Shown in pieces: positions 6,502 through 59,046 of a DNA stretch of 59,046 bases. Under the pieces are notes generated by a model. The model had not been told where the DNA came from and ran no database searches. It was given only the letters and a program-made list of their open reading frames with translations. The DNA is from Candidatus Marsarchaeota archaeon. GTDB lineage: Archaea; Micrarchaeota; Micrarchaeia; Micrarchaeales; Micrarchaeaceae. Position 1 is the stretch's first letter, and each line of letters opens with the position of its first letter. The stretch is from NCBI GenBank assembly GCA_023485295.1, contig JAMCZQ010000003.1:1-59046 (forward strand), in the 5' to 3' direction. Made by a program: the position numbers and the translations under genes.

Positions 6502-6599
6502 CGCCGGGATTGGGATTTGAACCCAAACTTCCCGAGGGAAACCAGATCTCGAGTTTCGCCGCAAAGCACTGGCGCGTTACCAGTTTCCGCCATCCCGGC
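6502..6599 (-). tRNA. tRNA-Ser(CGA) with a 14-nt intron at position 30/31
   Basis: This is a class II tRNA gene on the minus strand. The acceptor stem is GCCGGGA/TCCCGGC, the discriminator base is G73, and CCA is not encoded. The long variable arm has the stem TTCCC/GGGAA, and the T-arm is TTGGG-TTCAAAT-CCCAA. The anticodon stem only closes (CCAGA/TCTGG, loop CTCGAGA) if 14 nt at 6555-6568 are removed, which places the intron between positions 30 and 31. A bulge-helix-bulge fits: exon bases 25-28 (CGCC) pair with intron bases 9-12 (GGCG), flanked by 3-nt bulges, with a small intron hairpin GC-TTT-GC. G73 and anticodon CGA favour serine over leucine. Confidence 0.85.
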
Positions 6600-46284: not shown

Positions 46285-49200
46285 CTAGGAAGGATTACCC
46301 TTTTCACGGGCCTTCATGGCTGCATATGCGATTATTATGATTGCCAGGACGACAATCACGACGATTATGGCGTATTCTTCATAGTTTGGAGTTGGCTTCG
46401 CAACCGTCAGTATCGTTGTCGTTGCAGTAGTAGCAGGAATTGTAGTAGTGATATTCTGGGTTGTAGCTACTGCGACAACTGCAGGTGCAGAAGCGAAGAA
46501 TGCGATGTTGCATGCGCTTTGGTTGATTGAATAGCTGGTTACTGGCATCCAGGTGCCATTTACAAGCGTCAGTGGCTTTATCTGCGATGGATTTAGAGAG
46601 CATGCATATGTCACTGTAGTGTTGATTGCAGGCACCTTCGGCGTTGCGGATATGTTGAAGCCTGAAATTGTATGATAGCCTATAGGCACTGAAGGCATCG
46701 TTGATGTTACGTTCTTTATCGTTACATCTTCTGTAATGTTCTTTGTGTAGTTGGAATATATGTTAAGCGCTATGTGCAATTGCGTTATTGTTATCTTTGA
46801 TCGTTCATGGGGCGCAATATTCAGCGATACTTCATAGCCCTTGTTTGTAATAGATATTGACGGAAGTGTTGTTGTAGTTACGGTTGTAGTGGTCGTTGTA
46901 GTGGTAGTAGTGGTTGTTGGAATGATCCTTTTTGAATAATATGCGTCGTAGGAACCGCCAGTGGTTGTGTAATTTGTGCCGCATGGCGTTGAATCAAGAA
47001 GGCCGTACGTATTGTTTGAGACATAATAATTGCCGTTTGCAGTGAAAGCGCATGCAAAATTGAACCTGACGTAGTAATGCGCTGGGAACGATATCTCTGC
47101 AGGCAGCTGATTCTGGTAATACGTTATGTTCAGCACCTTTGCATTGTCTGAATAGTTTATCAAGTATACATCAAACACGCTCCTGTTTGACGCATACGTC
47201 TTATTTACATTGTCTGTTATGTATAAAGTAGAGATTGAGGATGGATGCACAGGCGCAGGAATTATTGTCAATGTTCTGGACACTGATGCAGATGTGTAGT
47301 TTCCATTGCCAAGGGTATTGGCAGTTATTATGTAATTGCCTGCTGCTGGGCCAACAGCAAAATCATTGCTGGAGTAGAACGAACTTACCAAAGCATTATT
47401 TACAAAGGCATTTGCCTGCAACTGGTTGTTATACGTGGATATTTCGGCTTCGACAGTAGCTGTCGAACCGTTATAGACAAAATTTTGCGGGAAAACGGGA
47501 AATGATATTGATGGGGAGGCTTTTGCGATAGTGAAGTCCTTTTTTATGGCGTTGGATGTATAATTCCCGTTTCCCGTAGTATTGAAGACTACTGAATAAT
47601 TCCCAGCACCTTCATGTGCAGTGAACGTTATTGTATTTGATGCAAATGTTGAATTCGCAACTACATTGCCATTTATGTAAAGGTATCCCTTCAACTGGTT
47701 GCCAAAGGAATTTATGGAAGCAGTGATTAGGCATCCTGCAGAGCCGCTGTACGTGTAGTTGCTGCATACATGCAGTTGCAGTGTTGGCGTTGCCTTTGCA
47801 ATTGTGAATGACGCAGAGGTGGTGTTTGAAGTATAGTTTGCATTACCAGGAGTATTGGCAGTAAGCGCATATGTGCCTGCAGCAGAGAATTTATACGAGT
47901 TTGACCCTGTATTGATTATGCTTACTAAGTTCTGTTCCCTATAAATTACGATATAGGCGTAGGCGCCATTTGGAGAGACTGCAACTCCTGAAGGTATTTG
48001 ATAAAGGCTTGGTATGCTTAAGATAGTCTTGTTGGTAGCAGTGTTTACTACTATCACTGTTTCGTTGGCATCATTCGTAATGTAGGCATAAGCGCCACTT
48101 GGGGAAAAAGCGACATCAACTGGTAGGTTGAAATTTGACATAGTGTTAACAATGCTGCCTGTAGAAGTATTTACTATATTGACATTATTACCACCATAAT
48201 TGACTACATAGGCGTAGGCGCCGTTGGGGGAGAAGGCTACACCATGCGGCCCGAAGAAGAAACCATTGAGTGTCGAAACGATTTTACTTGTAGAAGTATT
48301 TACTACACTGACTGTACCGCTATTGTAGTTAGTTACGTAGGCGTAGGCGCCGTTGGGGGAGAAGGCTACACCCCATGGCCAGTTGAAACCTGTAATTTTT
48401 GAAATAATTCGATTTGTAGATGTGTTAACTATGCTAACGTTGTCTGCAAATAGATTTGTTACGTAGGCGTAGGCGCCGTTGGGGGAGAAGGCAACATCAC
48501 CTCCGATAAAGCCCTTAATAATTGAAACAACTGTGTGTTTGGAAGTATTAATTACGCTTACAGTCCCGCCTTCATTCGCCACATAGGCGTAGGCGCCGTT
48601 GGGGGAGAAGGCAACACCACGCGCTTCGCTAATTGAACTAGAATTCGACACTGTAGAGTTATATACTCCTGTGGTAATATTTGATATAAATATATTATTT
48701 GAATATAAGTTTAGAGGAACCTGGTTGAAGTATGTTATCGTGCCGAAATATGCTTTACTGTATGAGCCATTATAGATCGAATTTTTTGGAACAACAATAG
48801 ATAGAGGTGGGTTCGCTTTTTCTATAGATATCTTAATCGAATTAGAGATTATGCTGTTGTAGACTATTATCGTATTAGTGCTGTTTCTGAAATCATTTTG
48901 CATATGGCTACTAGAGATTGTGTATAGATAGTTCCCGGCAGTTGCGGACAATGAATTGGTTGGAATTTGCATTCCGAGAGAATCTTTGTTATTGAAAGCA
49001 GTGAACTGGCCCACGCTAGAATTTATATGGAATGCCAGAGTGTTCAGGACATTGCCCGAAGTTGAATTGCTTTTCAAAGAAGCTGAAATAAACGGTGCAA
49101 AAGAATTGTATGTGTATGTATTTATGGTTGGAGCTGTGTCTATCGAAATCGATTCATTTAACACATTAAAAGACATTGATAAAGTGTTTGCAGTATAGTT

Positions 49201-50544
49201 TGCATTGCCCAATGTGTTTGCAGTTAAGTAATACGTGCCAGGCGCAGAGAACCTGTATGAATTAAAGCCGGTGTTGAGTATGGTTAAGTTATTGTCATTC
49301 AGCACGTATGCATAAGCACCGCTTGGAGAGAAAGCAACACCTTCCAAGCCTTCGATGTTATGTATTGTTGACACTATAGTGTGTGTGGAAGTATTAACTA
49401 TGCTGATTGTATTATTGACATTGGCTACTTCAGCGTTTATTACATAAGCATAAGCGCCGTTGGGGGAGAGGGATATGCCAATGGGGCCATTGAAACCATG
49501 TATTGAAGCTACAGTTGCATATGTCGAAGTATTAATTACACTTACAGTGTTATTCTCATCCATTGTAACATAGGCGTAGGCGCCGTTTGGAGAGAATGCT
49601 ACGCCCCACGGGCCGTTAGAAGCATCGATTGAAGTTACAAGGCTACGCGTGGAAGTGTTTATTATGCACACAGCTCCTGGAAGCATAAAACCAGTTACGT
49701 ATGCATATGCACCGTCTGGCGTAAATGCTACATCGTGAGGGTCGGTAATACATGAATTGCTTATGGTTGTAACAATACTACGCGTGGAAGTGTTTATTAT
49801 GCTTACAGAATTATCGCCATTGTTTACTACGTAGGCGTAGGCGCCGTTTGGAGAGAATGCTACGCCCCACGGGTTATTAAATTTGATTATATTAGCGACT
49901 ATGCGCTTTGTTGAAGTATTAAATACACTAACATTATTGCCGATAGTAATGTAGGCATAAGCGCCGTTGGGGGAGAAGGCAACACCTCGTCCCGCAATGC
50001 CTGACAGCGTAGAATTTCGTATCCCTGTTAAGGTATTTGATACGAGCGCATTATTGACATAGAAGCTGACAGGTATCTGGTTTAATTGCGTAAACGTGCC
50101 GTAAGCAAAAGTCATTTTGTCAAGAGGCACTGATATGTTCAGAGGCGGTGAGGCTTTTGTGATGGAAATTGTATTTGACACTACGTGGCCGATTGCGCCT
50201 TGCGCAGAGCCAAGAGGCACCAAATTCACCGAATTGGTGCTTATTGCGTTTATCGCATAGGAATTGCCTGCAATCACGTTGGAGTTTAAGTATGGTATTG
50301 TGCCATACGCCTCGAAATTGAATGCTGATGCAGTGTTTGCGGTCAAAGCGTTCGCAACGACTATATTGTTTATTGATATTTCAGTGATATTAAGCGCGTT
50401 GGAAGGCGTTGCAGTTATAATATCTGTATTCCCATAGGTTATGACATTTCCTTTTGAGAATGTAAGACCTGCACCGTACGCTCCGATTGGAATTGATAGT
50501 AAAACAAGCAGAACAAGCATCGGCATAAACGTTTTTGCACACAT
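46285..50544 (-). CDS. Giant cell-surface protein with two YVTN beta-propellers
   Basis: This 1,419-residue secreted, membrane-anchored protein begins with a signal peptide (MPMLVLLVLLSIPIGAYGAG). Two blocks of six YVTN-type repeats (AFSPNGAYAYV, then NTST) lie near residues 180-420 and 635-865, enough for one propeller each. They are separated and followed by Ig-like, Asn-rich segments (GTYYLTANTLGNANYTANT and similar). A Thr run near residue 1215 and a C-terminal membrane helix (YAIIVVIVVLAIIIIAYAAM) follow, ending in basic residues inside the cell. NxS/T glycosylation sequons are very frequent. It probably coats the cell or mediates attachment. Confidence 0.9.
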   Translation of the reverse strand: MCAKTFMPMLVLLVLLSIPIGAYGAGLTFSKGNVITYGNTDIITATPSNALNITEISINNIVVANALTANTASAFNFEAYGTIPYLNSNVIAGNSYAINAISTNSVNLVPLGSAQGAIGHVVSNTISITKASPPLNISVPLDKMTFAYGTFTQLNQIPVSFYVNNALVSNTLTGIRNSTLSGIAGRGVAFSPNGAYAYITIGNNVSVFNTSTKRIVANIIKFNNPWGVAFSPNGAYAYVVNNGDNSVSIINTSTRSIVTTISNSCITDPHDVAFTPDGAYAYVTGFMLPGAVCIINTSTRSLVTSIDASNGPWGVAFSPNGAYAYVTMDENNTVSVINTSTYATVASIHGFNGPIGISLSPNGAYAYVINAEVANVNNTISIVNTSTHTIVSTIHNIEGLEGVAFSPSGAYAYVLNDNNLTILNTGFNSYRFSAPGTYYLTANTLGNANYTANTLSMSFNVLNESISIDTAPTINTYTYNSFAPFISASLKSNSTSGNVLNTLAFHINSSVGQFTAFNNKDSLGMQIPTNSLSATAGNYLYTISSSHMQNDFRNSTNTIIVYNSIISNSIKISIEKANPPLSIVVPKNSIYNGSYSKAYFGTITYFNQVPLNLYSNNIFISNITTGVYNSTVSNSSSISEARGVAFSPNGAYAYVANEGGTVSVINTSKHTVVSIIKGFIGGDVAFSPNGAYAYVTNLFADNVSIVNTSTNRIISKITGFNWPWGVAFSPNGAYAYVTNYNSGTVSVVNTSTSKIVSTLNGFFFGPHGVAFSPNGAYAYVVNYGGNNVNIVNTSTGSIVNTMSNFNLPVDVAFSPSGAYAYITNDANETVIVVNTATNKTILSIPSLYQIPSGVAVSPNGAYAYIVIYREQNLVSIINTGSNSYKFSAAGTYALTANTPGNANYTSNTTSASFTIAKATPTLQLHVCSNYTYSGSAGCLITASINSFGNQLKGYLYINGNVVANSTFASNTITFTAHEGAGNYSVVFNTTGNGNYTSNAIKKDFTIAKASPSISFPVFPQNFVYNGSTATVEAEISTYNNQLQANAFVNNALVSSFYSSNDFAVGPAAGNYIITANTLGNGNYTSASVSRTLTIIPAPVHPSSISTLYITDNVNKTYASNRSVFDVYLINYSDNAKVLNITYYQNQLPAEISFPAHYYVRFNFACAFTANGNYYVSNNTYGLLDSTPCGTNYTTTGGSYDAYYSKRIIPTTTTTTTTTTTTVTTTTLPSISITNKGYEVSLNIAPHERSKITITQLHIALNIYSNYTKNITEDVTIKNVTSTMPSVPIGYHTISGFNISATPKVPAINTTVTYACSLNPSQIKPLTLVNGTWMPVTSYSINQSACNIAFFASAPAVVAVATTQNITTTIPATTATTTILTVAKPTPNYEEYAIIVVIVVLAIIIIAYAAMKAREKGNPS
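47950..48640 (-). repeat. Six YVTN repeat units, second propeller
   Basis: Units of roughly 115-135 bp each carry a near-identical DNA core (GTAGGCGTAGGCGCCGTTGG, then GGGAGAAGGC on the plus strand). Several cores are identical base for base, for example near 48211, 48341, 48470 and 48582, while the linkers between them differ. Outer units diverge more. Confidence 0.85.
49290..50000 (-). repeat. Six YVTN repeat units, first propeller
   Basis: The unit and core are the same as in the second block. Cores near 49572 and 49832 share the variant GCGCCGTTTGGAGAGAATGC, distinct from the version dominant in the other block, so each block looks homogenised separately. Confidence 0.85.
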
Positions 50545-54141: not shown

Positions 54142-54241
54142 CAAAAATATAGGTGCAATACAATAGGAGCTATTGGCATATTTTCAGCATGAAGAAAAAG
54201 CAAAGATTAAATTATTAGTGTGTTAGAATTATAGCTTGAAT

Positions 54242-54357
54242 GCCAGGGTGGCGGAAACCGGTAACGCGTACGCCTGGAGATTTATATACCTGCAAGCGTA
54301 TGGCTCACTGAGCCTTCTGGGTTCAAATGCTTTATGCTGAATATCCCAGCCCTGGCG
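54242..54357 (+). tRNA. tRNA-Ser(GGA) with two introns (37/38 and 59/60)
   Basis: This is a class II tRNA: acceptor GCCAGGG/CCCTGGC, G73, D-stem GCG/CGC, anticodon stem TACGC/GCGTA, and a long variable arm with stem GGCTC/GAGCC. Loop CTGGAGA (anticodon GGA) forms after removing 15 nt at 54280-54294. The T-arm CTGGG-TTCAAAT-CCCAG forms after removing 16 nt at 54328-54343. For the T-loop intron the splice motif is ideal: exon TTCA (54-57) pairs with intron TGAA, with 3-nt bulges on both sides, an inner hairpin GC-TTTAT-GC and the T-stem outside. For the 37/38 intron the central helix has three pairs and a U-U mismatch. The uS13 start lies 12 nt after the tRNA. Confidence 0.92.
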
Positions 54358-54369
54358 TTTGGTGTTAAA

Positions 54370-54927
54370 ATGGCTGAAGAAAAAGGCGCGCAAGGCGCAG
54401 AGAAGCAACATGGCAGAAAAGAGACTGCCGCCAAGGCAACCTCCATAATAAGGATTGCCGGGAAAGACGTCAATGGAGAGCTGAGCCTGCGCAGAGCCAT
54501 AGATGAAGTCAAAGGCATAGGCTCTAGCATGGCAAACGCACTTAGCTTTGCAGCCGACAAGAAGCTTGGCTTGAGCCCAGACACGAAAATAGGGTCGCTG
54601 GCAGAAGACAAGATATCGGCACTGGAGGAGCTGATAAAGAATCCGGCCAAGTTTGGCATCCCAACATACATGCTCAACCACAGGAAAAACTTCGAGACCG
54701 GCTTGGATGCACATTTTGTCGGGAACGACCTAATATTCGCGAACAGGCAGGACATTGCAAGGGAAGTTACGCTTAGGACATGGCGCGGCATGAGGCACCA
54801 ATACGGCCAGAAGGTACGCGGGCAGCACACGCGCTCGACAGGAAGGACTGGCGCCACTGTTGGCGTTACAAAGAAGTCTGTTGCAAAGCCTGGTGCACCT
54901 GCGGGCAAAGAAGAGAAAAAGAAATGA
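54370..54927 (+). CDS. rps13: Ribosomal protein uS13
   Basis: This protein of about 185 residues starts from the ATG at 54370, with GGTG just before it. The core shows IIRIAGKDVNGELSLRRAIDEVKGIG and RTWRGMRHQYGQKVRGQHTRSTGRTG. An N-terminal Glu/Gln/Lys-rich extension and a Lys-rich C-terminal tail are present. The longer frame upstream overlaps the tRNA and is rejected. It heads uS13-uS4-uS11. Confidence 0.95.
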   Translation: MAEEKGAQGAEKQHGRKETAAKATSIIRIAGKDVNGELSLRRAIDEVKGIGSSMANALSFAADKKLGLSPDTKIGSLAEDKISALEELIKNPAKFGIPTYMLNHRKNFETGLDAHFVGNDLIFANRQDIAREVTLRTWRGMRHQYGQKVRGQHTRSTGRTGATVGVTKKSVAKPGAPAGKEEKKK

Positions 54928-58582: not shown

Positions 58583-59046
58583 ATTCCAGTCGATGCTGCT
58601 GGAGGACACTGCTATCAGATTTCGACAGCCATGCAAGTCTGTTCAACGACTTCGTTGGACGGCGTACGGCTCAGTAACACGTAGTCAACCTACCGTAAAG
58701 AGGAGGATACCCATGGGAAACTGTGGCTAATACTCCATAGGCTAGGACATCTGGAAGGAGTTCTAACTTAAAGGGGCATGAATTGGAGTGCTTTCGCTTT
58801 ACGATGGGGCTGCGGCGGATCAGGCAGATGGCGGGGTAACGGCCCACCATACCTATAACCCGTAGGGGATGTGGGAGCATAAGCCCCGAGAAGGGCACTG
58901 AGACAAGGGCCCTAGCGCTACGGCGTGCAGCAGGCGCGCAAACTCCACAATGCGCGAAAGCGTGATGGGGGGAATCTGAGCGGTTCACTTTGTGAACCTT
59001 TTGCCAAGTATAGCAAGCTTGGCGAATAAGTGCTGGGCAAGACCGG
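58583..59046 (+). rRNA. 16S rRNA, 5' part (runs off the window)
   Basis: The first 464 nt or so of a small-subunit rRNA gene. It begins ATTCCAGTCGATGCTGCTGG, the counterpart of the archaeal ATTCCGGTTGATCCTGCCGG, and then shows CCATGCAAGTC, GGCTCAGTAACACGTAG, GGTAACGGCCCACC, CACTGAGACAAGGG, GCAGCAGGCGCG and AAGTGCTGGGCAAGACCGG, which ends just before the universal 530-loop sequence. Several normally conserved bases differ, as in DPANN/ARMAN rRNAs. Open frames on either strand inside it are not genes. Confidence 0.95.

Follow-up and report, generated by a model that had tools for sequence, protein, structure and literature searches.

Described T-loop introns and the serine tRNA locus

Position 59/60, in the T-loop, is among the listed sites of archaeal non-canonical tRNA introns, for which Crenarchaeota and Nanoarchaeota are named as rich sources in the same review (PMC4090602). 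Multi-intron tRNAs have been tabulated for ARMAN-1 and ARMAN-2 (PMC4033280), and the epsilon2 splicing endonuclease (EndA) of ARMAN-2 has a broad specificity, cleaving a pre-tRNA-Ile and a bulge-helix-loop pre-tRNA-Cys (PMC12397907). Transposition of tRNA introns has been described in Thermoproteales (Fujishima 2010, as cited in PMC4090602 and PMC4033280), and in the tRNA-Ile(UAU) of Cyanidioschyzon merolae an intron in the T-arm blocks Psi55 formation by cmPus4 (PMC9602550). The site 59/60, ARMAN tRNAs with several introns and the epsilon2 EndA are therefore already published, and an earlier report of the same intron in ARMAN-2 is possible; the reach and long conservation of T-loop introns in Micrarchaeota seem less documented in the literature surveyed.

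The window analyzed here is a whole stretch of 59,046 nt from Candidatus Marsarchaeota archaeon, a member of the Micrarchaeaceae (GCA_023485295.1, contig JAMCZQ010000003.1, positions 1 to 59,046). It contains a real gene for a pre-tRNA-Ser(GGA) with two splicing-endonuclease introns, one of them in the T-loop, and the features of the locus are as follows.

54207..54214 (+): TTAAATTA, probably an archaeal TATA box, some 28-35 nt ahead of the tRNA
54242-54357 (+): pre-tRNA-Ser(GGA), 116 nt, two introns
54242..54279 (+): tRNA-Ser(GGA) exon 1, positions 1-37; acceptor, D-arm and 5' anticodon arm (ARAGORN, spliced)
54276-54278 (+): anticodon GGA, inside exon 1
54280..54294 (+): intron 1, 15 nt, ATTTATATACCTGCA, at the canonical position 37/38; relaxed bulge-helix type with a U33.U mismatch
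54295..54327 (+): tRNA-Ser(GGA) exon 2, positions 38-59; includes the class II variable arm GGCTC/GAGCC
54328..54343 (+): intron 2, 16 nt, TGCTTTATGCTGAATA, at 59/60 in the T-loop; ideal bulge-helix-bulge
54344..54357 (+): tRNA-Ser(GGA) exon 3, positions 60-73; G73, CCA not encoded
54361-54364 (+): GGTG Shine-Dalgarno-like motif between the tRNA and rpsM
54370..54927 (+): rpsM (ribosomal protein S13), Pfam PF00416, starting 12 nt past the tRNA

Exon 1 reads GCCAGGG-T-GGCGGAAACCGGTAACGCG-TACGC-CTGGAG up to the first intron, after which the sequence continues as A-GCGTA-TGGCTCACTGAGCCTT-CTGGG-TTCAAA, the second intron and T-CCCAG-CCCTGGC-G. The first-pass annotation had placed 15 nt at 37/38 and 16 nt at 59/60, and the lengths, positions and coordinates of both segments are correct; their removal, which it held would leave a class II serine tRNA, indeed gives a complete class II tRNA-Ser(GGA) of 85 nt in ARAGORN, with all stems intact. 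Its expectation that simple tRNA models would overlook the gene was also borne out: the unspliced sequence is detected neither by ARAGORN nor by Rfam cmscan at the gathering score, and a permissive Rfam search of 54200-54400 misses it again. With the T-loop intron left in, ARAGORN reports nothing; with only the 37/38 intron left in, it miscalls the gene as tRNA-Ala(GGC) with shifted intron boundaries. A group I (self-splicing) intron or other known RNA family was rejected on the lack of any Rfam match and on the size of the inserts (15 and 16 nt), group I introns being typically over 200 nt long and equipped with a catalytic core. A split or permuted tRNA was rejected as well, as the parts are all contiguous and in normal order.

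Like the archaeal non-canonical introns listed previously (PMC4090602), the T-loop intron lies at 59/60, is short, has bulge-helix-bulge junctions and shares its gene with a canonical intron; it differs from those sources in its micrarchaeotal host and in the recurrence of the T-loop site in many isoacceptors. The host belongs to the same broad lineage as ARMAN-1 and ARMAN-2 and has a homologous EndA together with multiple and relaxed introns (PMC4033280, PMC12397907; PDB 4FZ2), although it is a different genome from ARMAN-2. As far as the papers citing Fujishima 2010 describe the Thermoproteales, the likeness lies in similar intron sequences occurring in different isoacceptors, which suggests spread between tRNA genes, whereas the lineage is unrelated, the endonuclease is of another type and the subfamily found here sits at one site, 59/60. 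The tRNA-Ile(UAU) of C. merolae likewise combines T-loop and anticodon-loop introns in one tRNA, but it is eukaryotic and carries a third intron in the D-arm (PMC9602550).

Structure and conservation of the two introns

The T-loop intron forms a bulge-helix-bulge in which a CTGGG/CCCAG outer stem and a GC/GC inner stem enclose the three-base bulges AAT and TAT and a TTCA/TGAA central helix, just as the first-pass annotation had described it (an ideal motif, with the T-stem outside and GC inside). Shifting the splice point by one or two bases would leave the mature tRNA unaltered, and the intron was set at 59/60 because the geometry of the bulges fixes the boundary. In RNAfold, the isolated T-arm reaches its minimum of −8.9 kcal/mol with the TTCA/TGAA helix open, versus −8.6 kcal/mol as a bulge-helix-bulge; energy alone thus does not demand the motif, and the case for it rests on comparison. 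The 37/38 intron is a relaxed form that departs from the ideal, with three of four central-helix pairs, the U33.U mismatch and an inner helix that is not clear.

Orthologs were anchored on rpsM in 57 genomes of two families plus Candidatus Micrarchaeota archaeon YP1.bin76, the nearest named relative found (58 loci in all). In 41 of these loci rpsM is preceded by a Ser(GGA) gene; 40 were parsed automatically and one (L028) was read by eye. The 37/38 intron is kept in all 41 (40/40 parsed plus L028) and the T-loop intron in 35 (34/40 parsed plus L028), and every one of the 40 parsed orthologs, once spliced, is a complete class II tRNA-Ser(GGA). The six orthologs that lack the T-loop intron are scattered over four genera, and one of these genera (g4) also has intron-bearing members; the intron has therefore been lost or gained at least a few times.

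The T-loop introns of the parsed orthologs comprise 31 distinct sequences of 15-43 nt, and the central helix is paired at four of four positions in every one of them (31/31); in L028, read by eye, three of four positions pair. The strand facing TTCA is TGAA in 24 of the distinct introns, TGAG in four and TGGA in three, so that its sole changes are from A to G, with pairing kept. Inner-stem pairs total 118, compared with a mean of 20 and a maximum of 38 in 2000 shuffled trials, and the intron interiors differ among orthologs yet rebuild the bulge-helix-bulge. A compensatory change is seen in the Cys tRNA of the same genome, where exon TTCG is matched by intron CGAA. The 37/38 introns range from 11 to 24 nt across orthologs; their pairing with C32, U33, G34 and G35 averages 3.2 of four positions (1.7 in shuffles), and the full four-pair helix occurs in 7 of 39 distinct sequences. 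Taken as comparative evidence, the 41 orthologous loci, the 31 paired helices and the inner-stem excess argue that the inserts are more than chance.

The failure of simple tRNA finders on the locus could be read as the mark of a decaying or silent pseudogene with two small insertions, Ser(GGA) being made elsewhere, and tRNA relics do occur in the genome: at G000:C5:50496-50569 (-) lies a degenerate second copy of tRNA-Pro(TGG), probably a relic, with an 8-nt T-loop and stem mismatches. Against such decay stand the intact stems and the preservation of both insert positions and of the motif across two families with structure-preserving change, and no other Ser(GGA) gene was found in the genome (885 kb, eight contigs, 95.7% complete). 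Used as a query, the 85-nt mature sequence matched, apart from this gene, only parts of other Ser tRNAs and, by chance, one stretch of 15 bases; the second, uninterrupted tRNA-Ser(GGA) gene that the first-pass annotation had named as a refutation was not found in this 95.7%-complete assembly. The gene thus appears to be single-copy, although at that completeness an uninterrupted copy might conceivably lie in an assembly gap. On conservation and copy number, the pseudogene reading was rejected as extremely improbable. It is just as hard to credit that only the T-loop insert is placed correctly and that the anticodon-arm insert has other boundaries. The Ala(GGC) call made by ARAGORN when the T-loop intron alone is removed and the mismatch in the 37/38 central helix would fit such a shift, but the variable arm, acceptor and D-arm match those of Ser(TGA) (C6:93899) and Ser(CGA) (window position 6502), Ala(GGC) has a gene of its own at C5:39206, and all 40 parsed orthologs become Ser(GGA) upon removal of the 37/38 intron.

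As a separate observation, the contig end cuts off an archaeal 16S rRNA (58583-59046, +) after its first 455 model positions, so the assembly breaks within the rRNA gene.

Splicing machinery and the rpsM neighborhood

The type of splicing endonuclease, which the first-pass annotation had proposed to inspect, is epsilon2, as in ARMAN-2, and a single polypeptide, judging from full-length similarity. The EndA gene (G000:C6, L032:862-2040) encodes 392 residues with matches to PF01974 and PF02778, and residues 5-392 align to 2-387 of the ARMAN-2 enzyme 4FZ2 (E 9e-170). With residue roles and numbering taken from PMC12397907, the alignment retains Y160/K161 of the ARMAN-specific loop, the catalytic Y236/H251/K282, R275 and W384. 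A gene for the RtcB ligase is present in the host genome. We consider it nearly certain that the locus is a functional single-copy tRNA-Ser(GGA) gene, both introns of which are cut by the epsilon2 EndA, with joining by RtcB.

In the processing pathway that we propose, transcription would start from the promoter just upstream, probably jointly with rpsM; the epsilon2 endonuclease would cut both the perfect bulge-helix-bulge at 54328-54343 and the relaxed bulge-helix at 54280-54294, RtcB would join the exons, and RNase P, the 3' tRNA nuclease and the CCA-adding enzyme would finish the molecule. Cleavage, ligation and the order of the two splicing steps are what we infer from these components. 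By likeness to C. merolae, where the T-loop intron blocks Psi55 formation, splicing in the T-loop may be suggested to precede modification of the T-arm. The conserved two-intron gene, the ARMAN-2-type EndA and the natural variants together form a comparative set for the recognition of T-loop and relaxed substrates by epsilon2 enzymes.

The sequence TTAAATTA is probably an archaeal TATA box, and a T/A-rich box lies at a like distance upstream of the tRNA in most orthologs. The short gap between tRNA and rpsM, with its GGTG, recurs in many relatives, and co-transcription of the two genes is likely. The T-loop intron might additionally link the release of the rpsM mRNA leader to splicing of the tRNA, an effect that would stand beside the two-intron gene reading rather than replace it. 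The requirement of 3' tRNA processing for an intact T-arm, the recurring layout of a 12-nt gap with GGTG, and the distance of at least 90 nt from the rpsM match in all six parsed orthologs without the T-loop intron would favor this coupling. However, L025, L083, L093 and L099 carry the intron and are likewise over 100 nt away from the rpsM match, and only four genera are represented among the six intronless cases; because of these exceptions and the few genera, the association between intron and rpsM proximity is weak and phylogenetically confounded, and we regard the coupling as very unlikely. Farther upstream in the window, 46285-50544 (-) encodes a probable surface protein of 1419 aa that has repeated motifs of the beta-propeller type (Pfam lactonase, WD40-like) and a threonine-rich stretch.

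T-loop introns across Micrarchaeota

The first-pass annotation had considered such introns rare in DPANN lineages, a view that fails here, as T-loop introns are common rather than exceptional in the host lineage. Seven tRNAs of the host genome carry one: Ser(GGA), Arg(TCG), Arg(TCT), Arg(CCT), Ala(GGC) and Cys(GCA) with the full motif, and Leu(CAA) in relaxed form. A pattern for the 59/60 intron was searched in 301 genomes of the phylum, with the reversed pattern as control. It was found in 81 of 85 genomes of the host family (217 matches versus 29 for the control) and in 65 of 79 genomes of the sister family (150 versus 17), which for these two nearest families combined amounts to 146 of 164 genomes versus 41 for the control. 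In the rest of the phylum it was found in 74 of 137 genomes (132 matches versus 50), all of these counts including chance matches, especially outside the two nearest families. Since ordinary finders overlook the Ser(GGA) gene and give low scores to several others of its kind, Micrarchaeota genomes may wrongly appear to be without tRNA-Ser(GGA) and some Arg, Ala and Cys tRNAs.

Some of the T-loop introns begin alike, with ATAARCTTT. Such introns were found at 24 loci in 19 genomes and 11 genera (164 genomes searched), and the loci, when spliced, are Arg(TCG), Arg(TCT), Arg(CCT), Ala(GGC), Ser(GGA) and Ser(CGA), several of the Ser(GGA) genes having been miscalled by ARAGORN owing to the second intron and assigned from sequence. 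The Ser(GGA) gene of some genomes has such an intron at the place where relatives have the short GC-stem one, and Arg(TCG) in G033 and Ala(GGC) in G231 have TGGAAAAAGTTTAATCAAAA in common. Within this set, which was selected on its nine opening bases, 13 cross-isoacceptor pairs share at least nine bases beyond those, compared with 0.54 in shuffles (maximum 5); part of this likeness follows from hairpin pairing. In a small set not selected by sequence, seven cross-isoacceptor pairs share at least eight bases against 2.4 expected, and 1 of 200 shuffles reached seven pairs. A subfamily common to Arg, Ala and Ser tRNAs hints at transposition, which is kept as a lead because the excess is only modest in the set not selected by sequence; the shared sequences might instead stem from hairpin pairing or from gene conversion between similar T-arms. 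That a spreading family of introns has repeatedly landed at the T-loop site 59/60 in Micrarchaeota is, on these sequence comparisons, a tentative proposal to which we give somewhat less than an even chance. If true, tRNA intron transposition would occur in two lineages, Thermoproteales and Micrarchaeota, both of them with a broad-specificity endonuclease; transposition would back the proposed link between such endonucleases and intron spread.

Several other tRNA genes deserve mention in their own right. At 6502-6599 (-) of the window, ARAGORN calls tRNA-Arg(GCG), but the sequence reads as a tRNA-Ser(CGA) whose anticodon stem is interrupted at 30/31 by a 14-nt intron (CCAG[TGCTTTGCGGCGAA]A CTCGAGA TCTGG). 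The tRNA model found no tRNA-Trp in the host genome, where it may be hidden by introns, and there are apparent D-arm introns in Gln(CTG) at G000:C2:108375 (-), Leu(TAA) at C6:178567 (+) and Ser(GCT) at C6:21158 (-). Four loci in genomes of different assigned genera (g1, g3 and g10), L154 (G003), L142 (G009), L153 (G266) and L152 (G016), have near-identical Arg(TCG) genes and upstream DNA, and three of them near-identical T-loop introns as well; recent transfer or misbinned contigs would account for this.
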